This document shows positions 3,641-49,933 of a stretch of 64,000 nucleotides of DNA, piece by piece. This DNA is from Branchiostoma floridae (lineage: Eukaryota; Chordata; Leptocardii; Amphioxiformes; Branchiostomatidae), in the NCBI RefSeq assembly GCF_000003815.2, contig NW_023365750.1, positions 159,311-223,310 on the forward strand, read 5' to 3'. The translations under genes were made by a program, and so were the position numbers. Under the pieces are notes generated by a model that worked only from the letters and a program-made list of their open reading frames with translations, searched no databases and was not told the origin of the DNA. The first letter of the stretch is position 1. The number at the start of each line of letters is the position of its first letter.

Positions 3641-3644
3641 CAGG

Positions 3645-23091: not shown

Positions 23092-24443
23092 ATTATATTT
23101 CAGCCATACCATAGGTATGGTGAAATATATTGTATTCGTAATGTTTCTTTCTTTCTTTCTTTCTCCTGTCAAATCTTCAAATCGAATCAACTCCGTCGTT
23201 CCTGGACCGAATGACTTGAAATTTGGCACAAGGGTAGAGTGGGCCAATACCCTTAGGTGTTTTTTTCATTTTATTCATATCTGCTTCTAAAATGATTTTA
23301 TTGAGGTTTTATTGCAATTTTTGGACCACAACTTTATATTTAGGCCCCCTGTACCATGGTATTACATCCAAATGACCTGAAATTTAGCACAGAGGTGCCC
23401 TAGGTACTTATTCAAAGGATCCATGCATAATATTTGGTATAAATCACTTCAAAATGGCTCATTATGGAGGTTTTTGTGGGAGAATTTTGGATTTGTGAGG
23501 TGGAAGTGCCGAGGTCAACGACCTCTAGGTCATTCTGGAAGCCACAGGTGTTTCTGGTAGATCCAATCATCTACATACCTACCTAGTCCATGTTCCTCCA
23601 GGTGGTTGGGGGGACAAGGTAAATCTAATTAATTATTAGCCAATGAGCAAGGTTATTTTGCTGGAAGAGTCCATCGTTGGTCAGGGGGTGTTTTTTAAAA
23701 TTTACTTTAAGACTTTGGTGATAATGCCAATGCTTTTTTTAGCGGAAGTGTTTTTGCACTGATCCACTTGACATATGGCTACTGCTGGGACAGTCCATTT
23801 TTGCACATAGGGGGGATTTTTAAAAACTTCATTTTTGGACATGGGTGATGATTCCGAATTCCATTTGTTGAATGGAACTTGACCCCACCTGAAGACTGTA
23901 CCTGAGGATTCGGCAGCCAATCAGCAAGCCTGATGTAATATGGATGAGTCCATTCATGCACAGGGGACTATTAAAAAAATTCAGTTTTGGACTGGGTTGC
24001 TTATTATAGAAAAGGCCATGTATTTCTGGACTTTGGTGATTACTAGTATGTCAAAGTCCTATTTTAGCAGATGTATTTTTGGATCGCTCCACTTTGCACA
24101 GGGGTATAACAGGTAGAGTCCATTCTTGCAAAGGGGGGGGGGGATTTCTTTCAGTTTTGGACGGCTGATGATTCAAAATTCCATTTCTTAGCGGAAGTGT
24201 TTTTGGACTGGTCTATCTTACCCTTCTACATTGGGTGCACTTGAGTCCATTCTTGCAGGGAAGGGGGTTGTACGATTCATTTTTGCTCATACGTGTAATT
24301 AGTAGCTTAGGATGCTTAGTCATCTTAAGCAGAAGAGTTCCATTTTTGCACATGGGTGATTTTGGAATAGTCCATTGTTGCTTGGGGAAGGAGATGGCTG
24401 AAATATGCTGTATTTGCTCTCAAGCAAATGTCGGCCTTTCTAG
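23092..24443 (+). mobile_element. Helitron-like element, copy 1
   Basis: Begins ATTATATTTCAGCCATACC. Ends with a 7-bp-stem hairpin (ATTTGCT/AGCAAAT), then GTCGGCCTTTCTAG followed by T. A hairpin about 14 nt before a CTAG end and insertion next to T match Helitron 3' ends. The inverted copy at 32677-36123 shares both ends. A 5'-TC start is not evident, so classification is tentative. Confidence 0.5.
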
Positions 24444-26958: not shown

Positions 26959-27013
26959 ATGAAGTTTGCCCCGAGGATAGTTGGCACACTCATGGTGGCT
27001 AATTTCAGCCTGG
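26959..27013 (+). CDS. Copy C, signal-peptide exon
   Basis: Begins [18 protein letters not shown]. Pro-Arg replaces Leu-Gly of B and D near the start of the hydrophobic core, which may weaken it. Donor GTAAGT, phase 1. Confidence 0.8.
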
Positions 27014-30000
27014 GTAAGTTCAAATGTGTTTACTGACTTTTAGTCTACTGTTCTAAATCCCACCTTGTCTTTAACTGTATATAACTTTACGGTAAGTTGT
27101 TTGAAAACCTGTAGCTGTTGGGAACTGGTGTTACATTATTTATCCAAACTCTAATGCGTAATCTTAAGTCTTTTGTCCAGTCAGTCACTGTGTACTATGC
27201 ACCTATAATGTCTGCACTAGGACTATCTGTTTCCTTTTTAACATTTCCCAAGGCCTTTTAACTTCCCTTCTAACAAAGGCTTTCCACGTCTTCTGGGTAT
27301 TTATGAGACATTTATGAATGTTATGTACATTTCTTGTGAACCTTTGCTTCTTAAGCCTTCTATATGTACTTTTTAATATTTGTGTAAAGAATGATAGATA
27401 GTACTATCACCATGTCTTCTTTATTGAAGATTAATCAGATAAATGTATTTGCATTATTACAGTTTTCTGCCAGATTCCACCTCCATTAGGTGAGTTCCTC
27501 AATGTTTCATTTTATCTAATAATCAAGTGGGGCATCAAATGCAAATGCATAGATATGCTTTGATAAATTAAAAATTAAAAGTCGTAACCATAGAATTTTT
27601 TGTACACCATGAACCTGCTACACGAGCCTAAATTAAAGGCAAATTGACCTTTAATAACATCGATATTCATGATTACGTTGATCTAGAGCGGTTGAAAAAT
27701 GTTTTAGACCATCCTTAGTTCTTTCGATATAAATATCATTATAATTATGATGGGCCGTCTCGTAACGCTTCTATATCCCGATGTGAGTGATGAAAAGTGT
27801 GCTTCTGTTGCAACAGAAGAGCATATATATTGTATATTAGAAGTGATCTTATTGTTGTCAAGGCATCAGTGACATCAATCATTTCTTATTTTCTTCAGCC
27901 GTGACATGTCCCTATCCAGTAGACCTGGTCTTCCTCCTGGACAGCTCGGAGAGTTTCAGGACGAGCGGTTTCGAGGATGCAAAAAGCTTCATCCAGACCG
28001 TAGTCAACTATTTTACACTCGGAGAAAATGACACAAGGGTGGGTGTTGTAACGTACAGCAACGCAGACGAGCAGGTCACACGAGTGAAGCTGAATGAAAA
28101 CTACACCAGAGTTGAGCTCTTAACCGAAATACGTAACCTTCCTTACGACAGAGGTCATACCTTCACTGGACTCGGTCTCGATCACGTGCGCAATGATTCA
28201 TTTCTTGAAGTAAACGGTCGGCGAAATGATACTTTCGACTTTTTGATCGTACTAACCGACGATGAGTCCGAGGATGAGGTCATTCGTCCGGCACAGCTGG
28301 TACGTCAGATGGGCATCACTGTGTTTGTTGTGGCAGTTGGCCAGGAAAGTGACATTAGTCAAGCTACTCTAGAGACTATTGCTGGTACTCCAGACAGGGT
28401 GTTCAGGCTGGAGGACTATGATTTCCTTGTGGATGACGAGCACCCTAGATCTATAAGGGAGAACATTTGTAACGGTGAGTAATACGTATATCCTATTTCC
28501 TACGGCCCACGTCTATACCTGTCATTTCTAAAGAATTATAAAACATACGTCACCGTGTTATCTAATCAGTTGAGGAGAATATATTTGATTGTCATGTTTA
28601 AAACAAAAATATGTGTAAGTAGGTTTTGTTTAAAGACCGATTTTTGCAAACATACTAATTACATTTCTTATTTTATCACTGTCAACAATATGTAAAGGTA
28701 ACATGTACACCATATACCTTGCGTCTTTGTAAACATTACATCACAATGCAAAACAAATCGCACATCAAATGTGGAAAAGTCAAATTCTGTAAGAATGAAG
28801 AATCATAGATCCATACGTAAAACAGTTGACCTTTGTTCGCAGCGAGTAGACCTTGTGATCCACAGTGTCACGCCGACGCCACCTGCCGACTATTGGTGGG
28901 AACCTACACGTGTATGTGTAACGTCGGATTCGTCGGGAACGGTTTCACCTGCACAGGTTCGTCATGATCCATAAAACTTGCTGTTATTATTTTGCGGTCT
29001 GTCAGATGTCGTTGTTGCACCAGCCGCGAAACGGTGCGCAGAACCCTACAAATAGACGTGGTGTAAAACGTATCAAATAGAAAAGTGAAATAACAAATAC
29101 AATACCAAAAAAAAGGACTACTAGTTTCTAATGTTGCGAAATTTGTAAAGATTGTATGTGAGGGGGGGGGGATTTCAGTGTAGTGTAATTTTCAAAAAGG
29201 TGGGCCAATTCTCATAACCGTTCTAAGATGTTTGGTCCGCAGTGAAATTTGCCTCCCTCCTCAAATTCTTAACATTGCGTGACCTTCCTGTATTTCAAAC
29301 AATTTTAAAAGGCAAAGATCAAAAGGTTATTAATTATTTCAGCAAGGCAATGTTCGGCGTTGACGGCCCCAACTAATGGAGTGCTGAGTCCTCTAGGGCC
29401 GTACTCCTACCTAAACCAGGTTACTGTCACCTGCAACTCTGGATACGACCTGGACGGAATCTCTCCTGTGACGTGCCAAGATGACGGAACATGGAGCAAC
29501 AGTGTTGGAACATGCAGACGTAAGACAACTTTTGACTCATCGATATGTGCAATGCTAAGTAATTTCTACCCCTAAAAATAGATATTTAGATTGAGCCAAC
29601 AAAAGTAATATAACTTTTAAAGAGCAATTTGGGCGTTCTATTTTCTATTTTTCTACAGGTACAGGGCAGGTGATTTATAATCAATGTTTCACCATGTAAC
29701 ATAAGTATGCAGATCTCTAGCAGGTTACAGCATATAGTTTACTAACAATTTCAGTCAGATGTTCCGAATTGACGGCCCCAACTAACGGAGCGCGGATACC
29801 CTCTACCGGAGCGAACTCCTACAGGAACACGATCACGTTCACCTGTAACCCGGGATACCAATTGACAGGAGCCTCTCCTGTGACGTGCCAAGCTGACGGA
29901 ACATGGAGCGACCCTGTTCCAACTTGCACACGCCAGACGACTTGTAAGTTTCTATTCATGCTAGCAATATCCAGCTAACTGTAGCTTTAGAAACTCACCA

Positions 30001-33000
30001 GATAGTTAAATTGTTTGAATTTCTATCATCAAAAATGTTAAGCAGGCGTAGATTTAAAATGAGTAGTTCTGTATACCTACGGTATAGAGACAAAGGTGCC
30101 AGGAACGGGTTATTGACTATTTCTGTGACACAATGACCTACGTTGACGACCTCAACTAAAGCCTATGTCGACGCCCGCCGTACGTTTTTTTTTTGTTGTC
30201 CGTACGCGCGTTTCCTCGGAAAGCCAAGTAAGCCACGTATTCCAGTAAACGTGAGGAAGAACTGGCAAGAGCAGGGAAGGGGTGAGACAACACAAGTCAC
30301 TCGCACGGTTGTGCAATTTGTACTAAGGCCCTGAGCGGCGGCGTGTATCGTTCGTTGCGCAAGTACGTGCTTACAACGTACGATCTATGTGTGTGATTGA
30401 TGTTATCGTATGCAGGCCTTACTTACACGTGCTGCTTACGCACGGTTTCCTTACTCACTCGACACGCGTCACCCGTACTTGCTCGTTGGGGGGGTCAGCA
30501 GCCTGTACGCATTGAATGCCTATCGAATTTCCGACTAATGCCAAGTGTATTCCAAGCTTATTTTGTTAGTATTTCTTTAAACAGCAACTGCGTCCGGCTG
30601 TTTCTATTAATACTGCGGATTCCAAAACGTGATCTTCAAACATTTGTCCTCATGGGCTGCCCAAAATGTGAAATAGCCGTAATATGCATACCAAAATTGT
30701 AGAGTGCACCTTGGGTATTCGTCTATTATGCTATATTTGCACTTTATGTCCCTTTTTCAGACCTTACCAATAAGTACAACGCGCTACCCATCGCAGAATG
30801 AACGGTACTAATCGTTTAATATGTCTGTGCCGTGCGTTGTTTCTTTGCAGCACGTACGCTATTTTAAGATCTCTCAGAGCGTATCACTGCGTATGGGGCG
30901 TTAACACAAACCTTACTCATGATCACGCCTCACTGGACCGACGTGGGAGAGGTGCACTGCCTATCATAACGTTTGAGCTACGTAACTGAGTACAAATGAT
31001 AGTTTTTTCACGTTCAAATCTACCAGACCGCCACAGACGTACTGACGTATTACTGCGTACCAACTATTCAGACGCGTACGTATGAGGTAAGCATATGCGT
31101 ACAAATGCGTATGAAAGAAATTAGAAAATATGTTAAAACGGAACGCATGCGTACTTAAAACTATACGTAGGTGTTGTATTTTCCTGGAACGTATGCCTAC
31201 CTAAACGTTACCTTTCTTGTTAAGAATAACTTAATTGGAAGAAAAATAATATGCATTATGTTTCTGTTTCAAGATTGAAAAATATCAATGCATGTTGTTT
31301 GTTCCATACATCATAAGTATCAAGAGCCTATTTTCAAGGATCATAATCAAGTATATTTTATTTTTACAGCCAGACCATGTCAACCGTTGACGGCCCCAAC
31401 TAACGGAGTGCTGAGTCCTCTCGCCCCGCACAACTTCCCTGTCACGGTTACGTTCACCTGTAATGTCGGATACATACGGAACGGCGCCCAAACTACGACG
31501 TGCCAAGCAGACGGATCATGGAGCAACCCTACTCCCACATGCACACGTAAGACGACATGCTAGTTGATATCTGAAGCGATGTTGATCAACTTGTAGTATG
31601 TAGTGAATCTGATAAAGAGAGTATCAGGAGGAAATTGCATGACCTCTCCATCTTTAAAATACATTGATAAAAAGTAATTTTAACTCAAAAGGCATTATTT
31701 TGTGCATCTTTAGTACAGAAGTATGTTTCCATATTTAAAGTTTTTTTGCATTTTGCCGCCTTAGCGGCAAAATGCCTTGTGGCCAGAGTAGTCGCCGTTG
31801 GAATGTTCAATCCATGCCAAACATTTCTCTACTGGCATTGCTTCAATATTTTTTTACATCCATTAAAATACTAATTTTTACATCCATTGAAATATTAATT
31901 AACAATACTTTTGTATAGAACATTAAAACTCACCTTTGCACCTGTTCTACTTCTGCATTTTTTCGATGTTGGGATATTTGAATGAACGAACCGTGAGACG
32001 TGCGATACTCTGCTTATATGTCGTTCTAACTTTCCATAAAATGCCCATACAACATCTATATCACAGAATTACACAAGAACAAACTGATTTTCTCGAAAAT
32101 ATATGCATACTGTATGACAAAAATTTTCACTAAACATATTCATTTTCATATTTCTGGACATAAAGTCATTTGTATATTTGTGAATCTCTCCGTGTGCCCA
32201 TATCAGGTTTAGTTACTCTGTTCTATTCATATGACATTCTGATAACTAGGGAAAAAAAAAACATTCACACACGCAAACCTTGGCAAAATACCAGCTTTTT
32301 TAAAAGCACTTGTTTTGGTAAATTTCAGCTGGACAATGTCCGGATTTGACGCATCCAGCCAACGGAGCACTGAGTCCTCCTAGACCATACTCGTACCTAA
32401 ACATGGTCGTGTTTACCTGTAACACGGGATACATTCTGAACGGCGCTGCTGACACGATGTGCCAAGCAGACGGATCATGGAGTAACCCTGTTCCAACATG
32501 CACACGTAAAGGTGACTCTAAAAAAACAAGATTCGAAGTTGATAATATACTATTAGTAATGTCGATCGAATTTTAAAACAGCCAAAATTACTATAAAAGC
32601 GATATTGCTCAATACTTGAAAGATGCCAGACAGATAGACATACCAACTGCCTGTCAACAGGCGTCTTTTAGTACAACTAGAAAGGCCGACATTTGCTTAA
32701 GAGCAAATACAGCATATTTCAGCCATACCCCTTCCCACCCAACATTGGACTGTTCCAAATCACCCCTGCGCAAAAATGGAACATCCTCTTATCTTAACAG
32801 TACATTATCCCCCAAAGTGGACTGGTATTGTGAATTGATTCCAGGTAAAAACAGAGCTTGCTTCTATTTTTCAGAAAATGACAATAATCACACCTTCCAT
32901 GCCATTCAGAAAATTTTCATCATGACTTAAAATTGTTGAATGACTTCATGTAATGTCATTAACAATTTTCAGTACGATAACTAGGTGTAAGTTTAAAAAA

Positions 33001-36000
33001 GTATAAGCTCCTTGTGATGTGGGTACATTTATTATTGCAGTGAACTTTTTTTATTCAAGTAGGGCATACGATTTAATAATTATCAAGCAGGTGCAGGTAC
33101 TGTAGGAGCGTTTGTTTTCTTCAAGCTGTAAAACTGTTAAACTGTTTTACTTTGTATGCAATCAGCCATCGAGCCTATTTTTATTTTAGTTTAACAACTT
33201 CCTGCCAGACCCGGAAGATACGATTGGACCTTGTTCGAGGATTTATTTTCGTCTGTCTGGTCAGTCTGTTCATACCCTGGCGCTGAGAGTGTTTTATTGG
33301 GCTGAAACTCTGGCAGTTTAAAGTTACTTACAATTTAAATGTTCAAAGTTCATGTTAAACAACAACAGCACTAGGAAATGTGGCCACTATAGACAGGTGG
33401 TCACTATAGAGAAAATGCTGATCTATTGACTAGGAGCCATACGTTACACATGATTTCAGTACACTTATCATTAATCATATAAACATTGCACAGGTAAGCC
33501 AATTGTTTAGATGTACAATTAAGTTCAAATAATTCTGAAGAGAAATATTGATGAGAAAATAATCATTCTCGCCACTGTCTAACTTATAATTACGTATCAA
33601 AACTAAACGCAGATTTTCTAACTAACGCACCTTTCGCCGACTTCATCAAAGGACCGCCGGCTATCAATCAAACACGGCTGTTGATTAGACTTAGAGTTTC
33701 AAACAGTCATGTGCTGTGTGCCAGTTGACAGCGAACTTCATGCTACCGCCGGCTATCAATCAAACACGGCTGTTGATTAGACTTAGAGTTTCAAACAGTC
33801 ATGTGCCGTGTGCCAGTTGACAGCGAACTTCATGCTACGTGATGTTTTACATTGCTTGGACCTTCTTTCCTACAGCGGTGCTTCTACAAAATATTTAGAC
33901 TGTAACACTGAGTCCCACATGTTTTATAGAATAGAATTTGACGCAGAACAGCGTTTTTTGCTGGGTATTTTTCTTGAAACATGTCCGTGGGAATATCAGC
34001 GAGGCGGCGACGTAGGGATATCAGACCGTCAACAAAAGTCGCACGGCGGCTAACGGCGCAGCAAAGATACTAGCGCTATAAATAAGCGCTTCAACTAAGG
34101 ATGGCAACCCGTACAATATTTTTGTATACTGTTGAGCTAAGTAAAGTTTGTTGTTTATGAGGTTTTAGTTGTCTTTGAAGCTTTGACCCGAAATATTTTA
34201 AAGTCAAACTGCTGAAGAGAAATAAGTGACTGCTACGATTATCGTAGATATGGCCCTAAAAAACTGATAAAAGAAGCCTTCTCAATAGTCTAAAATGCAA
34301 GAGCTTCCGGGGGGGCTTCACCCACCTGGGTCCCCCCCACAGTGGCCCTGCCCCTGGACCCCGCCAGGGACATTCGGCGGCCCCCGGACCCCTGTCCGAC
34401 GCTTTGAAAAAATCCTGGCGAGAAGTCTGTACGGCCTGAGTCTTCAAGTTAAAGTATTGTGTGGTCCCGCTTATGAATATTAATTAGCCTTCGCTTTCCT
34501 CTTCGCTGATTGGCTGAACCATTAATTGAATTAACTCTTCCTGCCGGCTAGACGCAGGTGCAGATGTCGGCTCTGTGGGGTGAACGTCCGAAAGGTCATG
34601 GCATGGAGAACGAAAGAAAACCAATTTCCCCCCAAAAAAGTGCTGTAATTAAGCCTTTTACAGTACTTTATGCCAAAAATTTCACTTGGATCATTTTACC
34701 AACTATCTTATGCCTATCTATACCAAATGTTACTCATACCAGGGTACAGGGGTGCAAAATATACCGTTATAAGACCGTCAACAACAGTCGCACGGAGCTA
34801 ACAGCGCAGCGAAAATACCATCGCTAGCGTTTCAACTTCGGATAACAAGTTATAAGCTGTTGAACTCAGTAACGTTAAAGTTTGTTTTTAGTTGCCTTTG
34901 ACGGTTTGACCTGAAATAGTGTTACGCTAAACTCCTGAAGAGAAGTTAAGTGACTGCTGCGATTATCATAGATATGCCCCTAAGAACTGATACAATATAA
35001 AGCCTTCTGAATAGTCTAAAATGCGAGAGCCTTAGGCGGGCTTCGCTCCCCCTGGCGGGAACACTGCTATATACGGGGTCATGAGGCCCCGCTAATGAAT
35101 ATTAATTAGCCTTTGGCCTCCTCTTCGCTGATTGGCTAGGTCTTTGATTCAATTAACTCTCCGGCTGACGCGCACAGGTGTGGCTCTGTGCGGGGTCACG
35201 GAAGGTCTCGTCAGGAGGCCAAAAGAAAACAAATTTCCCCTCAGAAAAGTGCCAAAATTAATCATTTTAAAGTTGTTTATGTCAAAAATTTTACTTGAAT
35301 CTTGTTACCAATTATCTAATGCCTATCTATACCAAATTTCAGGTCATGTAATTGTAATACCAGGGTACAGGAGCCAAAAGTGTCCTTTTTTGGTCAAAAA
35401 TTGGCCAAAAATCGCAAAAAAAAAGGATTTTGTTGCAATGTACACCAAAAGTGTTATTGAATTTATATGAAGGGATTATCAAGGCACATCTGTGTCAAAT
35501 TTCAGCTCATTCGGTTGCAATACCAAGGTACAGGAGCCAAAAGTGTCCTTTTTTGGTCAAAAATTGGTCAAAAATCGCAAAAATAAGCATTTTGTTGTAC
35601 TGTACACCAAAAATGTTATTGAATTTATATGGGGGCATTATCAAGGCACATCTCTGTCAAATTTCAGCTCATTTGGTTGTAATACCAGGGTACAGGGGCC
35701 AAAAGTGTCCTTTTTTGGTCAAAAATTGGTCATAAAATCGCAAAAAAAAGCATTTTGTTGCACTGTACACCAAAAGTGTTATCGAATTTATATGGGGGCA
35801 TTATCAAGGCACATCTCTGTCAAATTTCAGCTCATTTGTTTGTAATACCAGGGTACAGGGGCCAAAATATACAGTTTTGGTCTAAAATTGACCAAAAAAT
35901 CTCAATAAAATCATTTTAGAGGCAGATATGAAAAAAACTGAGAAAAAAGCATCAAGGTATTGGCCTATTCTACCCCTGTGCCAAATTTCAGGTCATTCGG

Positions 36001-39000
36001 TCCAGGAACGGCGGAGATGAATCACTTTGAAGATTTGACAGGAGAAAGAAGAAGAAGAAGAAGAAAGAAGAAACATTACGAATACAATATATTTCACCAT
36101 ACTATGTATGGCTGAAATATAATAACAGTGACAGGTACTGCTTCTAGTTATCAAATGTATAAACCTCCATGTACCCTATGAAATGTTTTAATCTAGGAAC
36201 CATTTACTCTGATCTATTAAACATATTCTGTTTACGGTGTAGATCACAACCATCAATATGTGACTTTTAACAAAGGAACACTTCTATTAATCGTTATCAT
36301 ATCGATTTTTTAACGATTTTTCTGAAAAATAATAGATGAAACATGAGCGTATTCTTTGACTCATCAATATAAGATTGACCAACGATATTGATCTTATAAC
36401 TGCAGCCTACATTTCAGATCTTGATGAGTGCACAGGGAACACTGACGTTTGTCCTCAAGGATCTACCTGCCTTAATATACCGGAAGGACACGGATGCACA
36501 TATTGCTCACCTGATGTACACATTTTGGGTGGAGGAACGCCAATCGCCCGCAGTAGAGCTTTTACACTGAACGGTCGACTCAACGTAAGTGTAAATTGCA
36601 TTGAGAAACGTGTACAGTACAAGTGGGAATGTGTTCCACCAAGTGGGAAAAGGTGGCAAGTCCCTGCCGATGTTGTTTTCACAAAAGCAGACCTTGTGGT
36701 TCCTCCCAGAACACTCCATTATGGTCTTTACCTGTTTAGACTAACTGTGACTGTGACTGAGACTAATACAGGAGTTGTAGTATCGGTTATAAGTCATAAC
36801 ACATCGGTGAGCATCACGCCCTCCCCTCTCGTTGCTGGTATTTTGGGAGGGGCAAGAAGGCAGGTTGGAGTTGGTGAATTTACCATAGATGCGGCCACGC
36901 TGTCATCGGATCCTGACGGCATCATATCAAGGAGCGCGGACCTGGACTATCGCTGGTCTTGTGATCCTATCAGTAAGTAATAACATTATTATTGAGATAT
37001 ACCACAATTGATTGACATAACAGGTAACTATCGCCTTTTCAAGAAATCAACCTGCAGCTGGAGATGTTTGCAAAAAATCCACTCACATCAGGAAAGGTCC
37101 CTCTCCTTTTGATAAGCGGGGTGTGGCTGAAATCAAACTGAGACAAACACAGGGCCTCCATTCAACGTCCTCTCTGAGGGACGGCCCTAACTAAAGCATG
37201 GTGCCCATTTCTACCAGAGACACACAAGATACGTAACACATCAGCGTATTCAAACCCAGAAACTCTGCGTTCTGGACCGAACAACCCCGCCGTTACATCA
37301 CTTTGCTGCTAAATTTGTGGACAACTTAGTCACACTGTGTATAGACACCCATGTCCAACGCTTTCAAGAAATTACGACTGCTTGCCAACTTCAATGTCTT
37401 CAATAGAATGAATTCTGCTATGTTTTAAAAGAGTATTGGCAGATTTTGTTTTGACTCATTAATTTCATTTTACTATACAGCTGCATATGTTTTCAGATGG
37501 AGTTTGCCTTGCATTGAATGGAGGAGTCGATGGTCTTCTTACAGTAAATACAAACCGGGATTCACTTAACTCCGAGCTCATGTTTACTGTGAAGGTGTCT
37601 GCACCCAACAGGACCAGTGCTTTTGCGAGTCAGGTCATAGAGGTGGTTAATTCGACCATCCCACTGCCATCTGTCATGTAAGCCTGAATATTGTTCAATT
37701 GTTACCATGATTGTATTTCTAGCTGAAATGCCTTATTGGTTGCAAGTAATCGTTTTGTATGCAATTACAAGTATTACCTGGTTTGCAATAGGCAATTATT
37801 TTAAGTGGCTTTGTAACAGCCTCTTTAAATGACTGTGTAGTCCACCCGGAGATTTCTTTCCTTGTAATAATTTTGCCTGATTTGCTAATTTTTTTTTGGT
37901 GTAAATGTGTTTTTAGTTGTGATACTAGTTATGGAACCTGCGGCCCCAAAATCAACTCCGGAGAAAGGTTGAGGCTGTCCGCGCTGTGCAGCAACTGTCG
38001 AGGAGATCCCAACAACTACAGGTACAACTGGACATTGGTGCAGACACGGGGAGTGGCTACGACTTGGACAGACGAAGACTGGAGGACAAACATACTGAAT
38101 GACAGAAGTCAAGACTACGTGACGTTCAGGGCAGAGGTTTTTGATCCGGTATGTTACTTTCTATGAATACAATGCGACTAGAAAAAATGTGAATTCCAAC
38201 ACAGAATCGAAACATATGGATTTCATTATTTGGCAGCTACACCAGACAAATTGTCTTCGTTGTGCTTTTGTTTTCTTATAGTAAATAAGGCCAACTTGTT
38301 TCTCACCTCACCTCACCGGTCCCAACTTGTTTACAATGTTCTAATTATTCAATACATTGTCATGTCTCTACAATAACGGACCACCCGTCTATAACTTTAA
38401 CTACTTGGCGTCATTTTAGATGCATACTGATGTCCCAGATACTCACAAATTCTATGTTTACTAGCATATAATCAAATCATCCTTTATCTCAAGCAGCAAG
38501 GCCAGTACATTGTGACTTCCACAGTGACGGACAGTAACACATGGGAGTCTGGTTCTGCCGAGTATTCCTTCATAGTTACTGAACCACCGACTGTAGGGAT
38601 CTGTACAGTCCACTCGCTGGGTAACCCGGCTGGATTTTTTGAGATAGCGTGTCAAGGTATTTCTTGAAAATATTTTAGCCTAAGTCGTTGTAACAGGCCC
38701 ATCTGTAATTCATGTTTTAATGGCTTTAGATGGGAAAAAATTAACGTGTGATTACAGCATTATTAATTTCAAGTTATCAATTCATGATTATCAATTTCAA
38801 GTCACCTCTGGATGCCTTTGCAATTCCATGTATCATAAGATTGCCACCAACACTTTGCTCCAGAATTTCAGATAGATAATGATACATTGCTTACTAGGAT
38901 TCAGCGATCCGGATCTACCTCTGCGCTATGACTTTGAGTACACAGCAGCGGATGTCAAAGTTGCTTCCATCAATTCGACATCCAGTGTCAGCCAACATCT

Positions 39001-42000: not shown

Positions 42001-45000
42001 TTGTGCTGCTGTAAAAAAGATAGACAATACTAGAGAACGGCGAAGATGCCCTGTATAAAAATTTGCATCTTCCTCGACACATGTGATAGAAGTAGTAAAC
42101 GTGTTCTTTATTAAGCAATCAAAATTATGACAGTAATTGGTTGTATAAGTATACGCAGTATATTTCCTATTCCAGGTGCCATAAACATTCTGGACGCTTC
42201 CAGTCAAAGCGTGGACAGAGGGAGGTCCGAGGCAAAACTGACAAACAAGACTACAGACTTTCAAAAGGTGACATTAAAATCTTTTCCAAGATAGTAACCT
42301 GCCAATTTTGAATGTAAATAGCCAACACAAATCACAATATCAATAGTATCGATGTAATGAAGATGTTATTCAATGCTGCTTTGTGTTATATCTTTTATTA
42401 TTTATTATTTACATATTTACATCAGAACGAGCAGGCAGTCACCACCGTTTTCGAAACTATCGACGAGTTGTCTTTCACAATGATCTCGCGAAAGAACCGA
42501 GACGAGAAGCCGACTCTGGTCCAGGCTAAGGAGTTCCTGATGTCCCTGGCGAGGTCCAGCTGTGACGGACTCGGGGCGCGGGTAATACAGACCCAGGAAA
42601 AAACGAAGGCGTACTTTGAAATCCCAGAGAACATTACCTCGAAGCTTTGTTTCAACGGAACTGTCAGATCTCAGGTGTGTATGTTTGGATACTTGTTATT
42701 ATATGATAAGATACAAGAAATCAGTAGCTCATCAGGACCTTCCACTATATTCTCAAAGTGGAATTTTACACATGTAACATTAATTAATATCCCGATTCTC
42801 GCGATATCTCTGCAAGCTACGCGCGAGCTTAACTTTGCCATACCAAGCTCCTTGGCCACACGAAGTCGAGGTAGAACTTTTTAACCAATCATACAGGCTC
42901 AGAACTGTATTCAAAACTTACTGTAGAGAAAAAATTGATAGTTACGTTTACTAAGAAAAACATTATGTATTTCTAAAATTCTGGCAATTGCTGTAATTCA
43001 TGTGTTGCATTGTTGTGTGTTTTATCTTTCAGACTTACTTTGCACCACGAAACCCTTTTGAATATGGAAATAATGCCGAGGATGTCAAGACCACGATTCT
43101 GGGACTTTCTGTTCTCGGCGAAAGGCAGAAAGTGCTTGTCAGTAACCTAAAGGAGGATGAACGTATCGAGTATATCAACCCAATATCTCCTGAGAAACCA
43201 ATAATTGTAAACGGCAATGCAACGTCATCTGACAGCAGGCAAATAGCGGTAGGTCCAGTTTTAATGATATGTATAAATGCGTTCTCGCTTCGATGTTACA
43301 GATGATCACTTACCAGCAGATTACATTGGGTAAAGTTCAATTAGCTACCTATCTCTTCTTTGCATAAAAATGTGTTTCTGAGCTTTCGTCATTATGTTGT
43401 GATTTCGAGAGATTCAAAATTTGCTACGATATTCTAAACAATCTTGAAAGCAATTCATTTCTACTTATAGGGCGACGTTTAGTTTGACAAGCCAACGTAA
43501 CATGCGAAACAGAGGATTGTAAACGTTGTTGTGTGGTTATGCATTTCTCGATCCTCTTTCTAAAACCACCATTTTCTGTTCTTTTTTGGTTAACAGATAC
43601 ACAATTTCAACACAACAGAACCAGGTGTTGCTTTCTACATCCGCGTCGTCCCTGACGTAAACGTCACGTTAAGGGCTTACCTGAAACGTGGTGCGGTTGT
43701 CTCACCTGTTGACTACAGTCACAATGCAACCCTAACAGGTAATGGAGTCTCCACACAGCCGCACACGTGGTTCGTGAACCAGGAAGCTTTAAACACCGGA
43801 AGTGAACGAGAAGTTTGGACAATAGGTAAGCACACATATTGATTACATATAGATTTTTATACACAAATTCTTCTCCCAATCCGTCAAGCTTTATATGTCA
43901 TTTTAGCACGAAAAAATATGACAACCAGCTTCTGTCATTCTGAATGCATTGCTTAATTAGGTTCAGCCTTGGCATTTTACGGTTGAATGGCATCTGTCAT
44001 CAAATACATCTTTAATGTATCAATAGAAAGAACATTCCATGAGACTCTTGCCGTTATGAATAAATAGTTTAATTGTATCATCGATATATGTAAACTATAG
44101 GCCAATTTTGTCACATTCTACAATATATTAACCTGTCTTTTGTAAACTTCAAAATTTTTAACTCTTTTTTTACCATTGAAGCTCTTATCTTTTAAACTTT
44201 GAACGTTTTGTGTCCACTGTCGTCCTACCTTCCTTAAACTAAATGTAACAAGTCCTGCCCTGTTTACATGTATGGTGGGCCCCCTTGGAAATCAGGCTTT
44301 AAAAGTTGAAGTGGCCAAGATGAAATAGATAAAACAGAAGGTTTGTCTATCTGCACGTAGGCCTCCAGAGGGTTCCAACCACTGATGAGAAAGGACAAAC
44401 GTCAGACTCCAGTGTTCGCTACACCATGAGAATCACAGCCTCCAAATGTCTCTTCTTCGACGAGTCGTCAAGTCTTTGGACCGACAGGGGATGTGAGGTG
44501 AGTTATAGTTGTATTTTGTATCCATATGTACTAATTCTATCATTCTATCAACTTATTCTGTTAGACGAAACGTCTTCGCAATATCTGTTATATAAATTTT
44601 GAAACTTTCGAAATCTGGTTAATTCTGGTTTACACTATCACAGCTACAAGCCGTAGCACACATAAACTCTAATAGTTCCATGGGGTGCCATGCTACCGCC
44701 ATATGAGAACAAGAGCATAGATTTAGAAAAAGTTGAAGAGATTTACGAATGCGGCATCAGCAATTCTGAGGTATATACACATCAGATATTTTGGTGTTCA
44801 AAATATAGCAAGATTTATCATGTGGTAGGATTATGGTACCTGGTGGAATTATGGGAGTTAAAGTTACATTTCAACATATAGATATATGTATATCTGCATT
44901 TACATGTGTTTTAATTAAGTAATTTTGAAGCTATTACAAAATCTTAATTCCTACCATAGATGGTAGTTTGTGACCCAAAATCATTTCCGTATTCATTTAT

Positions 45001-48000
45001 CTTTAAATCACTTTTTTTTCTCATTTTTTCAAGGTTGGTCCCCAGACGACAGACGAGCAGCTCCACTGTATCTGTGACCACCTGACAGCCTTTGCTGGTT
45101 TTGTTGCGCCCAACCCGCTGGACTTGGGCAGTTCCTTCACCTTTGACCTGGACAGAAGTCTGATAGCCCTGGTGACCGTGTGCGTCGTCATGGCCTTGTA
45201 CATCTTGGCTGTCTTCATTGGGAGAAGCTTGGATGTTGATGATAAACGAAAGGTTTGAATATATCCGTTTCTTTCCGTAAATTGGTCATCCAATGGCAAG
45301 AGACATGACGTTGTTAAATTGAAAAAAATATATGTTACAGATGCGCGAAATTTAAATCTTGAAGGGAACTATTGATGTTTGATTCCGATATTTTGGCAAT
45401 TTGAATTCCAAACTGTCTACTATGCAAATAATACAGTATCATTTCCGATAATAGTCTAAAATGGACATTAGCACGAAAATGGTCATGTTAACCCGAATTT
45501 CTAGTCTGCGTAACGCAAACTCTGCTGCCCAGGCTTGTAACTTGCCCCTATCTAGCTAAGAGGACAATTGTATGTTGGGCGGGCCGTTATAAGCGAGATG
45601 TAATGAGGCTACTGAATCGTTACTTGTAATGAAATAATTTGTCATTGTGTTGATATACCTGTTGTAATGTTACAGCGTGAATACAGACGTCAGCGTAAGA
45701 GAGAGAACAGGGTCCAACAACATAGTGTATACAAGAATGTACCCCAGTCTACAACGGGAAGAAGTTTTTTATCAGAACACCTGTGGATATCTGCTGTGAA
45801 CCCCCCATCCAACCACTTCACCCGTGTGCAGAGGATATCCTGTTGTCTGTCCCTCCTCATGTCCTTCATGTTAGTCAACATCATGTTCTACCGGGGAGAC
45901 AGGAACTTCGTACCCAGGGTTACCGGAGGGAGGGTCCAGTTAGAACAACTGTTCAGCTGGGACACGGTAAGGTCTGAATAGGTTTCTTTCCAAATAGTCC
46001 AACGACATAGGCTAATACATAGCAGCAAGAATACTGTGCGAAATTGTCTCAATGTGCCAAATCTTACACATACTTGGTTGAATGTATTTTAAACAAATAT
46101 AGATGTGATGGCATATCTATACGTGTGGTGATATGGTATTTGGGGCCACTTTCAGGCAAAAATATATTTTCGAGCCTCTTTACTGAAAACAAATGACCTG
46201 AAGTGTCTCAAATTTAGTGCTTTCTTAGACAAATCTGCACACATCGCCTGATGCTTGCATGTATGCCTCTTGACAGAACGGAGATTCTGATAATATTGGC
46301 ATTATATTAGTAGATATCTGATGTTTAAACGAGATTTAGTCTTAACATTTTCAGTTTTATCTTGCAAAATATGATGATCAATAAGAGTTCCTAACATGTC
46401 TTTATTTTTCGAATATTTCAGTTCATCATCGGCCTGGAGAGTTCCCTGATCGCCTTACCAATCAACGTCATCGTCGTGGTGCTTTTCCGTTACGCCGGGC
46501 CACGTCACGACACGTCATCGTCAGCAAATGGGCTCAACCGGAAGGGCAAGGAAAACTTAGAAAAGTTTAAAAAAGAAGGAGGTATGCTTCATACTAGACA
46601 CTTCCCTTTCACCACTTTGACTCTTTGTAGCAGAAAGAAACGCACCGCATACTCAATGGATAAGATTGAACAAATCATGCAAGCTTCCATTACAGACGTA
46701 TTTTGTACTCAGGCCATATGTACTGCCACTGTTTTTCATTGGGTGGCAAGTAGCTGATTCTTTATCACCTGATTAGTTTCCGTAAATTTTCATATTGCAT
46801 TAATTCTAATCTGCAGCGAATGCGATGGACGGAGAGCACGATACATACTGCACCAGTTTAAAGTCCTTTTTGAACTACTTACTTTATCTCAGTGTTAGGG
46901 CCACTATGGAATCATGTCATTGCAAATAACAGTTACAAACATACTGCACTTTTCGTCTCATGCGTTTCAGCCCTGAAGAAATCCGAGGACAGACACGGCA
47001 TAGAGAAACATGGCGCGAAGGTTGCCGTGAGTGAGAAACCGTATCGCCCATTGTCCTGGTGGAGCGTTATCGTAGGTGAGAGCTACCGGCAATTTTAATT
47101 CAGGGGGGGGGCGGTTTCGGTCTGTGCGTTTGTTCTTCTTGTGTGCTGCTTACTCAAATCAATATTACAAACTGAAGGAATGTGAGAGAGTATAACTGGA
47201 GACTTAAAGCTTTAATAGGATGGCTGGTTTGGCACAGGTCAAAAGTTGGTGTTGCGGTTGGAGAGTTTCATTGATCACGCCTGAATGCAAAATAATAGAA
47301 TTGTCTTCCATCAGTGACTGTTTGAAGGGATCATTAACACGTACTTCCAATTTTCTTAATATGTCTTCACAATACATCTTGTTCACGGAATTAACGGAGT
47401 TTCTACTCAAGTTTTGGATCTAGTCTCATACTCCCTCGAGACTAGGTCACTCCGTGAACAATATGTACTTTGAAGACGTCGAACATTTGAAGGTACGTGT
47501 ACATGTCTTCAAAGTGTCACTCAATGAAGAATAGTTTATCAATTATCAATTAGTATCTCAGGTTTAAAGGGTGTGTACCCACTACATGGGAAGAAAAGAG
47601 TTATAATATTTGGCGTCTTTACTGTCCTGTACGGTAATGATTACGGTAGGTATCAGACCTGGCTCATGTAGTTACATGTAACATATCTAACATATTTCCC
47701 TACAGCCTGGTTCCTGGTTGCTGCCATAGTTACAGTATCCGGTGCCTTTACTGTCCTGTACGGTAATGATTACAGCAGGTCTCAGACCTGGATCATATAG
47801 TTATATGTAACATATCTAACATATTTCCCTACAGCCTGGTTCCTGGTTCCTGCCATAGTTATAGTATCCGGTGCCTTTACTATCCTGTACGGTAATGATT
47901 ACAGCAGGTCTCAGACCTGGATCATATAGTTATATGTAACATATCTAACATATTTCCCCTACAGCCTGGTTCCTGGTTCCTGCCATAGTTATAGTATCCG

Positions 48001-49933
48001 GTGCCTTTACTGTCCTGTACGGTAATGATTACGGCAGGGCCAAGTCTCAAGCCTGGCTCTTCGCCTTCCTCATCTCCTTCCTGACTGACTTCATCCTCCT
48101 CCAACCGGTCAAGATCATTCTGGTCATCATCTTCTTCAAGCTGGTTACCAAGGTCAGCTGATTTTTGACATAGCAATGTTTCAGGACGTTTTCTGTCTTA
48201 AGTAAAAAGAAAATTATCATGAATAAATTAAATGATTAATGCTGTCTACCTGAAAAACATTACTATTAAAGACTACTGCAGCCGCATATCCAGCTGTAGA
48301 TAGCAATTTAATTAATTATTGTTTTCATCATTAATTGGCATGATGTGTGTATGTAATATAATCTTTGGATAACAGTATTGTAATCAGGATACGCTACACT
48401 ACCGTCGCAAAGAAAAAAGAACATGACATAGGTAAAGTACATGTAGAATATATCCAAAATCTGATCTTTAATTATTGTGGTAAATATATGCGAAATTCTC
48501 TTCTTATTACTTGCTTTACTTTATATTCTAGACAATGTGATATTTGAAATTGAACTTCATACTTGTCTTATGTTTTTTTTTTTAATTGCAACATTACTGG
48601 AAAATTGGAGTGGGCTTTAAAGGTAACAGCTGATAGTTCTGTCAGAATAACCACGGTGGTCAAATATGGGCTCAAAACCTCCCATGTCTAGCCGAATTGG
48701 AACCTTGTTCCACGATATTCCATCTGACGTAATTCGAACCGAACCCGTGTTCTATTTGGGGTCATCTGCGGTCGTTGCCGGTAAACACTGCTCTCTGGCC
48801 TTTTTTGCCAAACTACCTTGAATCAGCCAAAAAAGATAGTTTTTCACTAATATAAACAATTTTCTGGACAGTACATCCATGCTATCACTTTGTTTGGGAC
48901 CTGTGATATTTAACGAAGCTACTGACGTTTGTGTTAGTGACCTTGAATATTGTAAGTGTTGTTTACACCGGTATCAATTACACCCTCCCGCTATCCGTGC
49001 GGCAGGACATGCGTGCAAACTTCGTTTAAGATCGCGACCAAGAAGAGTCCAAATTATCTCGTTGACGGCTCAAAATGACCGCCATGATTTTCCCGAGATT
49101 TCTGTTTTTGGGATTTTTAGAAAATGCCTTCGATTTTGAATTATCGGTAAATTAAGTGCGAAAAATGCCATTTTTACGCATATTTTCGACTGTAACTTTG
49201 CTTAGAATCAAAAATTAAAAAATCCCAAAAACAGAATGTTTTATTTTCCTCATAGATGACGAAAAATATAAAAAAACGAGAATTTTCGATGATACATGAG
49301 GCCTATCTTATCAAGAGTTTGGTCAAATTAAAGGCCTTCCTGAAAACAGAAAATGATCGTCTTTTTAAGTAACCTCGAAACAAAACAGCTATCTAAATTC
49401 AAACGACAACATTCAATGTATGTAAAATTGCTAATTTAATCTAATTTCGAAAACATTTTCCTTGTCAAAACATTTTGTTTATTTTCAAATATTTTACGGG
49501 TAGTCAAAAGTAGGCCTCCAGTAACCCGATATTCTATCGAACGCGCACAGCAACGGGAAAGAATACCCTAGCAACCGACCGCCGTGAACAGTTTAACATA
49601 AAAACGTCAGATAAACAAATCTATTATAAGACCTTCTAAATCCAGCTAATGCAGGACAACTAAGACTCAAAATCTTTACTCTTCCCATTGCTGTAGCGCA
49701 CACAAGACAGGGAGGCGTCTCAGCGATCCGGCACCGGAAGTGACGTCTACTACTCCTATCCCATGGAACCCTTGCCCGTGCCTCCGCCTCCGGTCCAACC
49801 TAGCGGCCATTACCAGGAGCTGAGGCCAGCGGTGTACCAGAGTCTACAAAGACACCAGCGTACAGTACCCCAACCCCTGAACTCCACTAGAGATAGAAGC
49901 GCCTTCACTATCTCGCATAATTTTTTTACGTAG
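26959..49933 (+). CDS. Copy C: vWA-EGF-CCP4-EGF-REJ-GPS-5TM-tail chimeric receptor (spliced)
   Basis: Signal (26959), linker (27463), vWA (27899), EGF (28843) and four CCP exons (29343, 29755, 31370, 32329) match the family. From 36418 the exons encode a polycystin-1/REJ-type module: EGF start DLDEC, REJ, GAIN/GPS, then five helices to 48152. The family tail exon closes at 49697-49933. The phase chain is unbroken from CCP 4 (phase 1) through the module to KLVTK (phase 0), which joins the phase-0 tail exon. The module has no visible ATG or signal exon of its own, supporting one gene. Absent are a PLAT domain between helices 1 and 2 and polycystin helices 6-11. Five helices put the tail in the cytosol, as in copy B. 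The alternative is a separate polycystin-like gene lying within the array. Confidence 0.55.
27463..27489 (+). CDS. Copy C, linker exon
   Basis: 27 nt, VFCQIPPPL, acceptor TTACAG, donor GTGAGT, phase 1-1. Confidence 0.7.
   Translation, partial: FSARFHLH
27899..28474 (+). CDS. Copy C, von Willebrand A domain exon
   Basis: 192 codons, one vWA domain with a complete MIDAS set: DSSES, the threonine of GHTFTGLG, and LTDD. GITVFVVAVG core strand. Donor GTGAGT, phase 1-1. The C-terminal segment (EDYDFLVDDEHP) is more acidic than in B. Confidence 0.95.
28843..28956 (+). CDS. Copy C, EGF exon after vWA
   Basis: 38 residues with six cysteines: SRPCDPQCHADATC, YTCMC and [11 protein letters not shown]. 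Donor GTTCGT, phase 1-1. Homologous to 57990-58106. Confidence 0.85.
29343..29519 (+). CDS. Copy C, CCP exon 1
   Basis: ARQCSALTAPTNGVLSPLGP type with CNSGYDLDG core and VGTCR ending, phase 1-1. Confidence 0.88.
29755..29943 (+). CDS. Copy C, CCP exon 2, donor shifted 12 nt
   Basis: [18 protein letters not shown] type. The usual donor position reads GCCAGACG instead of GTAAGACG. A perfect GTAAGT begins exactly 12 nt later (29944) and keeps phase 1, adding four residues after the last cysteine (CTRQTT). Confidence 0.75.
30122..30160 (+). pseudogene. Relic CCP exon, copy C, left part
   Basis: CTGTGACACAATGACCTACG resembles the relics of copy B. The remainder appears at about 31175-31240, so a roughly 1-kb insertion splits it. 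Confidence 0.45.
30161..31170. mobile_element. Inserted sequence within the relic CCP
   Basis: About 1 kb rich in TACG/CGTA words, with weakly inverted ends (CCTATGTCGAC / CTATACGTAGG). It contains no recognisable transposase. The boundaries are inferred from the split relic. Confidence 0.35.
31370..31546 (+). CDS. Copy C, CCP exon 3
   Basis: ARPCQPLTAPTNGVLSPLAP type, phase 1-1. Confidence 0.88.
31744..31775. repeat. Perfect hairpin
   Basis: GCATTTTGCCGC and GCGGCAAAATGC pair across a CTTA loop. It may be the end of a further repeat; no function assigned. Confidence 0.6.
32329..32505 (+). CDS. Copy C, CCP exon 4
   Basis: GQCPDLTHPANGALSPPRP type with CNTGYILNG core. Donor GTAAAG, phase 1-1. 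Last CCP before the polycystin-type module. Confidence 0.88.
33654..33837. repeat. 92-bp tandem duplication
   Basis: Two adjacent units beginning CCGCCGGCTATCAATC, differing at one position (GCTGTG/GCCGTG). Confidence 0.9.
34090..35330. repeat. Direct repeat of about 0.6-0.7 kb, diverged
   Basis: 34090-34730 and 34840-35330 share ordered blocks such as GAAGAGAA..AAGTGACTGCT and AATAGTCTAAAATGC. Short open frames here lie in repeats and are not genes. Confidence 0.65.
35345..35890. repeat. 163-bp tandem repeat, about four units
   Basis: TACCAGGGTACAGG recurs near 35359, 35522, 35684 and 35848. Each unit holds GTCCTTTTTTGGTCAAAAAT. Overlapping open frames reflect the repeat period. Confidence 0.85.
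36418..36972 (+). CDS. Copy C, EGF-start and REJ exon 1
   Basis: 185 codons. Opens with a calcium-binding-EGF-like start (DLDEC...CPQGSTC), then a REJ-type region: VQYKWEC, then SPLVAGILGGARRQVG and LSSDPDGIISRSADLDYRWSC. Acceptor TTTCAG, donor GTAAGT, phase 1-1, so it can accept splicing from CCP exon 4. The upstream frame has no ATG. Confidence 0.8.
36973..37496 (+). other. Intron with decayed dispersed repeat
   Basis: The tract ATTCAAACCCAGAAACTCTG through TTACATCACTTTGCTGCTA resembles the eroded end of a dispersed repeat. No exon. Confidence 0.35.
37497..37677 (+). CDS. Copy C, REJ exon 2
   Basis: NGVCLALNGGVDGLLTVN, then FTVKVSAPNRTSAF. Acceptor TTTTCAG chosen because it keeps phase 1; the AG at 37480 would not. 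Donor GTAAGC, phase 1-2. Confidence 0.75.
37917..38148 (+). CDS. Copy C, REJ exon 3
   Basis: CDTSYGTCGPKINSGERL, then YRYNWTLVQTRG and YVTFRAEVFDP, a PKD/REJ-like beta-sandwich pattern. Phase 2-0. Confidence 0.75.
38494..38656 (+). CDS. Copy C, REJ exon 4
   Basis: QQGQYIVTSTVTDSNTW, then CTVHSLGNPAGFFEIACQG. The acceptor is AAGCAG, a NAGNAG site that could include or omit one glutamine. Donor GTATTT, phase 0-1. Confidence 0.7.
38898..39016 (+). CDS. Copy C, REJ exon 5
   Basis: GFSDPDLPLRYDFEYTAAD, then HLLYSGP. Acceptor ACTAG, donor GTAAGT, phase 1-0. The SDPD..L.Y.FEY pattern is typical of REJ repeats. Confidence 0.75.
39269..40238. mobile_element. TTAA-flanked piggyBac-like MITE, copy 1
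   Basis: TTAA at both edges (39269-39272, 40235-40238). Ends CCCTCAAGCACCC / GGGTGTTTGAGGG, with palindromic GGGGTCCAAACGGACCCC near each end. No transposase. Related to 60049-61000. Confidence 0.75.
40443..40565 (+). CDS. Copy C, REJ exon 6
   Basis: 41 codons: LPTGDPDENYELEIFIRV, then TDALGAFSVTRATAN. Phase 0-0, donor GTGAGA. Confidence 0.75.
40904..41065 (+). CDS. Copy C, post-REJ exon with GC donor
   Basis: 54 codons, VRPPENIEELVEAVLDD, then DVDNTKATYTN. The only phase-keeping end is AAC|GCAAGG, a GC donor; reading on hits TAA. The next exon continues ARDRMVQILEQV. Phase 0-0. Confidence 0.65.
41390..41515 (+). CDS. Copy C, GAIN-region helical exon
   Basis: ARDRMVQILEQVQVQ, then VSGTLAHVTNTPEELSDESQ, which fits the helical part upstream of polycystin GAIN domains. 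Phase 0-0. Confidence 0.75.
41884..41989 (+). CDS. Copy C, GAIN helical exon 2
   Basis: VRAADTLKTLGEVLTTEASE, then LEGVAAHLFTG. Acceptor GTTAG, donor GTAATA, phase 0-1. Confidence 0.75.
42176..42267 (+). CDS. Copy C, GAIN exon 3
   Basis: AINILDASSQSVDRG, then KLTNKTTDFQK. Acceptor TTCCAG, donor GTGACA, phase 1-0. Confidence 0.75.
42426..42674 (+). CDS. Copy C, GAIN exon 4
   Basis: 83 codons, NEQAVTTVFETIDELSF, then KAYFEIPENITSKLC. Phase 0-0. The pattern of a helical repeat then beta strands matches the GAIN region of polycystin-1 relatives. Confidence 0.8.
43033..43248 (+). CDS. Copy C, GAIN exon 5
   Basis: 72 codons, TYFAPRNPFEYGNNAEDV, then ILGLSVLGERQKVLVSN and EYINPISPEKPI. Phase 0-0. 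Confidence 0.8.
43597..43825 (+). CDS. Copy C, GAIN exon 6
   Basis: GVAFYIRVVPDVNVTLRAYL, then PHTWFVNQEAL and SEREVWTIG. Phase 0-1. Confidence 0.8.
44361..44497 (+). CDS. Copy C, GPS exon, first half
   Basis: YTMRITASKCLFFDES, then LWTDRGCE, which supplies the W..RGC part of the GPS motif. Phase 1-0. Confidence 0.85.
45034..45252 (+). CDS. Copy C, GPS second half and helix 1
   Basis: LHCICDHLTAFAGF completes the GPS, with HL|T as the expected autoproteolysis point. The first membrane helix follows (SLIALVTVCVVMALYILAV), then GRSLDVDDKRK. Phase 0-0. Confidence 0.92.
45253..45675 (+). other. Intron where a PLAT domain would be expected
   Basis: Polycystin-1 relatives encode PLAT between helices 1 and 2. 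This 423-bp intron shows no open stretch resembling it. Confidence 0.6.
45676..45966 (+). CDS. Copy C, basic linker and helix 2
   Basis: 97 codons: REYRRQRKREN, then LSEHLWISAV and FTRVQRISCCLSLLMSFML, a strong polycystin-1 signature (FTRVQR.SCCL). Phase 0-0. Confidence 0.9.
46422..46581 (+). CDS. Copy C, helix 3
   Basis: FIIGLESSLIALPINVIVVV, then LFRYAGPRHD and a basic loop, matching the IG.ES.LI..PIN motif of polycystin-1. Phase 0-1. Confidence 0.9.
46971..47075 (+). CDS. Copy C, loop and start of helix 4
   Basis: ALKKSEDRHGIEKHG, then RPLSWWSVIV. Phase 1-1; continues in the next exon as AWFLV. Confidence 0.8.
47606..47964 (+). repeat. Tandem ~130-bp duplication of the helix-4 exon start
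   Basis: Units begin with acceptor plus CCTGGTTCCTGGTT at 47706 and 47835 and again at the true exon 47965; a partial unit precedes from 47606. The upstream units contain GTAATG after CTGTACG and run into TAG if read through. Confidence 0.85.
47965..48152 (+). CDS. Copy C, helices 4 and 5
   Basis: AWFLVPAIVIVSGAFTVLYG, then WLFAFLISFLTDFILLQPVK and IILVIIFFKLVTK, the ISFL..F.LQP.K pattern of polycystins. Donor GTCAGC, phase 1-0. Polycystin helices 6-11 are not found downstream. Confidence 0.88.
48376..48431 (+). pseudogene. Remnant of the family transmembrane exon end
   Basis: CGTCGCAAAGAAAAAAG...CATAG|GTAAAG matches the CCRKEKNKEHNI end of the copy B membrane exon, but about 4 nt are missing. 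Spliced from phase 0 it stops at TGA (48424-48426). The hydrophobic helix itself is gone. Confidence 0.6.
48652..49586 (-). mobile_element. CACGG-ended DNA transposon, copy 2
   Basis: 935 bp, inverted relative to 5600-6532, flanked by AAC (48649-48651 and 49587-49589). Sits in the intron before the copy C tail exon. Confidence 0.7.
49697..49933 (+). CDS. Copy C, cytoplasmic-tail exon, phase 0
   Basis: 79 codons: RTQDREASQRSG, then DVYYSYP, a proline-rich PLPVPPPPVQP, YQEL and YQSL, ending at TAG. The EAVYEDV start of A and B is replaced and the exon now begins in phase 0, compatible with the phase-0 donor at 48153. Confidence 0.75.
   Translation, partial: RTQDREASQRSGTGSDVYYSYPMEPLPVPPPPVQPSGHYQELRPAVYQSLQRHQRTVPQPLNSTRDRSAFTISHNFFT

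Follow-up and report, generated by a model that had tools for sequence, protein, structure and literature searches.

A probable chimeric receptor gene joining a vWA-EGF-CCP front to a REJ-GPS-five-helix module in Branchiostoma floridae

Our analysis suggests that one lancelet receptor gene is probably a chimera formed by exon shuffling, in which a REJ-GPS-five-helix module stands between the vWA-EGF-CCP front and the cytoplasmic tail of a receptor family. This gene is copy C among the vWA-CCP receptor genes (copies A, B, C, and D) that cluster in tandem on the forward strand of the window, a stretch of 64,000 nucleotides of Branchiostoma floridae. The 27 exons of copy C (26959-49933, + strand) were joined into 5358 bases coding for 1785 residues with no inner stop. 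They encode, in order, the signal, vWA, EGF, four CCPs, 19 module exons (REJ, GPS, and five hydrophobic regions), and the receptor-family tail. The exons of this model were placed by hand and then verified by homology; a strict splice-score cut-off had yielded 2 candidates.

Gene model of copy C and the receptor cluster

The reading frame of copy C passes through all its introns: the phase was kept in 26 of 26 introns in the hand-placed model, with 25 GT-AG introns and one GC-AG intron (after 41065). In the joined frame, Pfam matched REJ (4.6e-67), Sushi (1.1e-41, four stretches), VWA (5.1e-37), EGF_3 (6.9e-9), and GPS (1.9e-7), and gave no EGF_CA match for the DLDEC stub. The front consists of one vWA, one EGF, and four CCP exons, all from phase 1 to phase 1. 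The first-pass annotation had stated that copy C begins like its sisters and ends with their tail exon, and both the coordinates and the Pfam matches agree with this. Its claim of unbroken splice phases from CCP 4 into the DLDEC exon and onward also held. Meanwhile, its count of about 18 module exons has to be raised to 19, and the REJ, the GPS motif CICDHLT, FTRVQRISCCL, and the helix segment that it named were all recovered (Table 1).

Table 1. Features of copy C and of the neighbouring receptor genes in the window
Feature	Position	Strand	Remarks
Copy A	left edge of window	+	CCPs, broken tail
Copy B, signal exon	9036-9090	+	
Copy B (sister)	11082..21768	+	vWA 11082, about 18 CCP exons, TM exon 20896-21030, tail from 21530
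Copy C, signal-peptide exon	26959..27013	+	ATG 26959, ends phase 1; MKFALGIVG start also in P0034
Copy C, vWA exon	27899..28474	+	MIDAS-like DSSES, GHTFTG, LTDD; Pfam
Copy C, EGF exon	28843..28956	+	Pfam
Copy C, CCP 1	29343..29519	+	Pfam
Copy C, CCP 2	29755..29943	+	Pfam
Copy C, CCP 3	31370..31546	+	Pfam
Copy C, CCP 4	32329..32505	+	Pfam; ends phase 1
Copy C, intron from CCP 4 to module	32506..36417	+	3.9 kb, repeat-rich
E1: EGF-ca stub (DLDEC, by P0001 alignment) and REJ start	36418..36972	+	phase 1 acceptor
E2-E4: REJ remainder and beyond (E2-E7)	37497-37677, 37917-38148, 38497-38656	+	Pfam, P0001 alignment
E5-E7: REJ remainder and beyond (E2-E7)	38898-39016, 40443-40571, 40904-41065	+	E7 donor is GC
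E8-E11: REJ-to-GPS region, GAIN-like by analogy	41390-41515, 41884-41989, 42176-42267, 42426-42674	+	P0001 alignment
E12-E14: REJ-to-GPS region, GAIN-like by analogy	43033-43248, 43597-43825, 44361-44497	+	P0001 alignment
E15: GPS CICDHL/T and helix 1	45034..45252	+	Pfam GPS
E16: short PLAT-less linker and helix 2 (FTRVQRISCCL)	45676..45966	+	P0001 alignment, 6a70_B match
E17: helix 3, contains IGLESSLIALPIN	46422..46581	+	P0001 alignment
E18: loop ahead of helix 4	46971..47075	+	P0001 alignment
E19: helices 4 and 5	47965..48152	+	ends phase 0 (AAG|GTCAGC)
Relic: 3' end of the sisters' single-TM exon, then its donor	48410..48431	+	helix-coding part gone
Cytoplasmic tail exon (SQRSGTGSDVYYSYPM..YQELRPAVYQSL)	49697..49933	+	family frame is phase 0 entry
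Copy D	signal 52933-52987, vWA 56994	+	EGF, CCPs up to right edge

The tail exon of copy A is split, with its start at 3504-3649 and its end matched at 5134-5250, and the ends of the stretch inserted into it (3645-4029 and 4756-5138) are inverted copies that are 97% alike. In copy C, the start of a CCP exon survives as a dead remnant at 30053-30159, which is truncated by other sequence and resembles 2045-2151 of copy A (77%, E 3e-16). In addition, a 163-base tandem repeat occupies 35333-35917 in the intron before the module, and related sequence lies inverted at 23092-23487, upstream of copy C. An element of about 930 bases lies in the last intron of copy C (48652-49586) and, in the opposite orientation, behind copy A (5600-6532), with the two stretches 87% alike.

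The module and its lancelet relatives

All of the 19 module exons aligned to the lancelet protein P0001 (45-93% identity), and thus they are not chance matches. The search with residues 489-1785 returned 23 proteins, and the nearest relatives of the module were lancelet predictions. Among them, P0001 gave the best identity (69% over 94% of the query), and the values were 63% for P0002 and P0003, 59% for P0004, and 67% over 72% for P0005; the best identity in the search with the vWA front was 70%. It should be noted that the REJ-side searches scored the 8000 or 7989 candidates that had the most words in common with the query and covered certain lengths only, and an annotated ortholog could be missed by them.

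The phylogenetic tree had 21 rows, namely copy C and 20 of the 29 proteins found by the searches with the REJ part (P0013 was dropped because it was too short, and the tree was built without the other 8). Copy C fell inside a lancelet clade with P0001-P0005 and P0065 (7 of the 21 rows, support 100/100), and the inner fork with copy C had a support of 98/96. The PKD1L2, PKD1L3, and PKDREJ rows stood apart from this clade, with the long outside branches being uncertain.

The GPS domain of copy C scored 31.9 bits against a Pfam cutoff of 22.5. Between helices 1 and 2 of the joined frame, no PLAT/LH2 match was obtained from Pfam, and the distance from GPS to FTRVQR is 109 residues in copy C, 96-97 in the four measured members of the lancelet clade, 99 in three relatives with EGF-rich fronts, and 238 in four PKD1L2 proteins (for the PLAT-type proteins, 4 of 7 yielded a measure). 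Furthermore, Pfam found no PKD_channel or helices 6-11 in the copy C frame, nor any domain in the three forward frames of 48151-52502. The polycystin-1 chain 6a70_B matched the module with E 3.1e-15 as a whole and 9.5e-11 for helices 2-3 alone, but with 0.064 for helices 4-5 alone. After overlapping windows were merged, five hydrophobic regions were counted in the module. The last one has 36 residues; four K/R follow its best window within 15 residues, and the 15 residues preceding that window have none.

Given the absent PLAT and PKD_channel matches and the short spacing, a PKD1-type reading with PLAT and channel was rejected. Judged by its sequence, the module is polycystin-like in REJ, GPS, and helices, yet by its defining parts it is no polycystin-1, and it derives from the lancelet clade without PLAT and channel. 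The label "polycystin-type" given at first suits the REJ, the GPS, and the later helices.

A tandem repeat at 47599-48038 (129-base unit, 3.4 copies) consists of the first half of the helix-4 exon, and two of the extra copies have their own acceptor-like site. By eye, similar repeats of the helix-4 piece occur in the predicted proteins P0004, P0005, and most of all P0065, in whose model the piece is repeated many times.

The two edges of the module

At the 5' edge, the join from CCP 4 to E1 is weak alone, because CCP and EGF exons often join in phase 1-1, and shuffled lancelet exons favour phase 1-1, as stated in part of a previous study (PMC4284660). In P0065 of B. lanceolatum, REJ likewise follows directly on a CCP. 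Within the intervening gap (32506-36417), neither homology with the 23 proteins nor Pfam in three forward frames revealed a sushi, EGF, or family exon, and the sole Pfam match of the gap search was CCP 4 itself. The upstream exons of the relatives were absent from the module flanks searched, and no Pfam domain was found on the minus strand of 33001-42902. The earlier statement that no signal exon precedes the module is weakly testable: the scan found 0 in the gap against 0.19 by shuffling and 2, 0, and 4 candidates in control stretches, and it recovers the signal exons of B and D and misses that of copy C itself. A search of this gap for the independent start of a polycystin-like gene found none by homology, Pfam, or this weak scan.

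The signal peptide of copy C has P and R at positions where B and D carry L and G, and its best 9-residue hydropathy is 1.76 versus 2.32 and 2.87 in B and D. Export of the copy C product may be impaired by this weakened signal peptide.

At the 3' edge, a relic of the exon for the single helix of the sisters lies 258 bases behind E19 and is followed by collinear intron pieces and then the tail. Its sequence (48410-48445) is 91.7% identical over 36 bases to the end of the TM exon and its donor in copy B (21009-21044); beyond this 3' relic, the helix-coding part of the TM exon was not found in copy C. The tail exon of copy C is shorter at its start than that of B by 26 bases and that of A by 23, and it carries YQELRPAVYQSL plus a proline run. 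The tails of A and B are entered in phase 1, whereas the family frame of copy C requires phase 0, the phase in which E19 ends. Entered in phase 0, the exon yields 78 codons in the family frame; in phase 1 a stop comes after 14 codons, and in phase 2 a different frame is read, with a stop after 41. Other AGs within the tail exon (49715, 49724, 49817, and more) would lead into the same frame at later points. The donor of E19 (GTCAGC) is weak. A product spliced from E19 to the relic and onward from the relic donor was rejected, because the relic ends in phase 1 at that donor and a stop then cuts the tail short after 14 codons.

The vWA of copy C has a dN/dS of 0.24 against copies B and D. The tail core (48 codons, C versus B) has 6 synonymous and 4 non-synonymous differences and a dN/dS of 0.19; it was picked after the ends were seen to vary, and the whole tail (71 codons) has a dN/dS of 0.49. 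By these values, the vWA and the tail core of copy C appear to be under constraint.

These edges also have to be weighed against two transcription units, in which a shortened vWA-EGF-CCP gene with a secreted product ends after CCP 4, a REJ-GPS-five-helix gene ends after helix 5, and the tail is a leftover. Read-through of E19 stops after two codons, and splicing from E19 to 48413 enters the family frame of the relic and, if read through, ends 44 codons on; both ends would suit a separate gene. So would P0001, which diverges from P0002 at the same VTK border as the E19 end and stops 8 residues past it. In addition, the consecutive B. belcheri tags Bbelb_216590 and Bbelb_216600 are members of the two families (REJ and vWA; contigs of equal size), and false gene joins in lancelets have a published precedent. 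However, no sushi, EGF, or family exon for such genes was found in the gap, nor a signal exon (by the scan that also misses the one of copy C), the family C-terminus of the KTKVTPETIS type was not found in 48155-52500 behind E19, and the tail core is conserved in the frame that fits E19. One gene is favoured over two neighbours because the TM exon survives as a 3' relic and the tail exon fits the phase 0 in which the module ends, at the VTK border where the relatives also part, because the module does not make up a complete gene by itself (the upstream exons and the family C-terminus are absent in the flanks searched), and because the tail core and vWA look constrained, though the value for the whole tail is higher. 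Thus, we regard two units as unlikely.

An assembly error that joined two loci is highly improbable in our judgement. The cluster is repeat-rich and three N gaps lie elsewhere in the window, but 26959-49933 is gap-free, the module has both its edges within a single copy, and behind its 3' edge come a sister-type exon relic and its tail.

It could also be proposed that the module landed in copy C by chance and that nothing functional is made. The two missing ends of the donor gene, the weakened signal peptide, the broken tail of copy A, and the dead CCP remnant in copy C are in keeping with such decay. However, the module keeps 3656 coding bases in 19 exons with no stop, no frameshift, and an intact GPS motif, and the vWA and tail core look constrained, so we consider a decaying relic quite unlikely.

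For the chimeric gene, we counted the open frame with unbroken phases, the clade support of 100/100, the precedent of P0065, and the consecutive B. belcheri tags. Against it stand the weak signal peptide, the 3.9 kb repeat-filled intron, the weak E19 donor, the one GC donor, the alternative E19 ends, the whole-tail dN/dS, the published attribution of novel lancelet architectures to gene-prediction errors, and a full layout seen in no protein found. The first-pass proposal of a REJ-GPS-five-helix module embedded in a vWA-EGF-CCP gene is supported by the phase, the truncated ends of the module, the relic TM exon, and the re-phased tail.

Under the chimeric reading, exon shuffling would have put the core of a lancelet REJ-GPS-five-helix gene, from the EGF-ca exon to the helix 4-5 exon, into a vWA-EGF-CCP gene, where it replaced the single-helix exon and perhaps some further CCPs. 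Such a gene would encode a surface receptor that binds a ligand outside by its vWA and CCPs. From its motif, the GPS is predicted to cleave itself between HL and T, with both parts staying together. Pulling or ligand binding could then free a new N-terminus that acts on the five-helix part, by analogy with polycystin-1 and the adhesion GPCRs. Helix 5 would have its end on the inner side of the membrane, as the lost single helix had, and the tyrosine- and proline-rich tail would stay cytoplasmic and relay the signal. The product itself is not expected to conduct ions, because it is without PLAT and channel helices.

Comparison with known systems

The literature is divided between the view that lancelets create new domain combinations fast (PMC4284660) and the view that their novel architectures are mostly due to gene-prediction errors (PMC4967905, PMC6071037). 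In addition, part of a 2025 pangenome paper adds presence-absence variation (PMC12373286). The DNA evidence of copy C, namely what is left of the exon that was replaced and a tail exon moved to the phase of the module, is independent of any gene predictor. If the gene is real, a putatively self-cleaving multi-helix module has been exchanged for a single helix in a receptor whose tail is conserved. A polycystin-like membrane part would then signal through a tyrosine tail, and we have encountered no earlier description of this.

The full layout of copy C was in no protein found by the module or front searches. VWA was in none of the Pfam lists of the REJ-search matches (0 of 23 and 0 of 10, with 4 of the 10 shared with the 23), and REJ was in none of those of the 41 vWA-front matches. 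The statement that no vWA-CCP receptor with this layout has been described needs to be narrowed, as CCP-REJ-GPS proteins (P0002, P0003, P0065) and vWA-EGF-CCP-GPS-7TM proteins (P0029, P0039) are already predicted in Branchiostoma. What is likely new in copy C is the combination of a vWA front with the REJ-GPS-five-helix module, made by exon shuffling.

The lancelet CCP-REJ-GPS proteins (P0002, P0003, P0065, and the shorter models P0001 and P0005) have the same module by sequence. Their Pfam lists include no PLAT and no channel, as in copy C, and no vWA, unlike copy C. In P0002, P0003, and P0065 the CCPs precede REJ, as in copy C. These proteins have a C-terminal tail of their own or another short end (P0001), whereas copy C has the receptor-family tail. 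P0001-P0004 and P0013 carry a family stretch ahead of EGF-ca and P0065 is without it; the name "SEA-like" for this stretch was dropped, since Pfam gave no SEA match in P0001 or P0002. Among the papers listed by the literature searches, none dealt with REJ in lancelets or with the CCP-REJ-GPS proteins, which are predicted models.

The lancelet vWA-CCP receptors with a single helix (P0034, P0038, P0025, and copies A and B) share the front and the cytoplasmic tail with copy C, their Pfam lists are without REJ or GPS, and their tail is entered in phase 1 (A and B). Of the traits of these receptors, copy C has the order of signal, vWA, EGF, and CCP and the shared tail, with the signal weakened and, of the single TM exon, a 3' relic alone found. 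The tail motif SQRSGTGSD (up to two errors) was found in 3 of the 64 retrieved proteins, all with VWA and Sushi. P0025 looks like two receptors fused in one model, and the contigs of P0002-P0004, P0029, P0034, and P0038 are of one same size (13296437).

P0029 (B. floridae x B. belcheri) and P0039 (B. belcheri) carry a like vWA-EGF-CCP front on a GPS-bearing multi-helix module, but where copy C has REJ and five helices they have 7tm_2 and GAIN-type domains, and the SQRSGTGSD motif is absent; P0029 has two vWA stretches. These predicted proteins represent a second membrane swap within the vWA-CCP family. Tentatively, and with slightly more doubt than belief, we propose that lancelets swap the membrane end of one kind of vWA-CCP front, which would sit on a single helix, on a 7TM GPS receptor, or, in copy C, on a polycystin-like five-helix module that cleaves itself and that acquired the tyrosine tail of the single-helix receptor when the tail exon changed phase.

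Polycystin-1 and PKD1L2 have REJ, GPS, and later helices homologous to those of copy C. However, in these proteins PLAT follows helix 1 and a channel region is present, and copy C has neither. A coral REJ-GPS protein, as described in part of PMC4890752, has PLAT and a layout unlike that of copy C. In Ciona, the sperm self-sterility receptor s-Themis-A has an LH2 (PLAT) domain, which copy C is without, and its first intron holds a partner gene; no Pfam domain that could belong to such a partner was seen on the minus strand of 33001-42902 in copy C. The passages of PMC9265791 on which we draw leave vWA and CCP unmentioned. Nevertheless, s-Themis-A combines REJ, GPS, and a five-pass membrane part in a chordate, like copy C, and going by these passages it is the closest functional parallel that we found among chordates.
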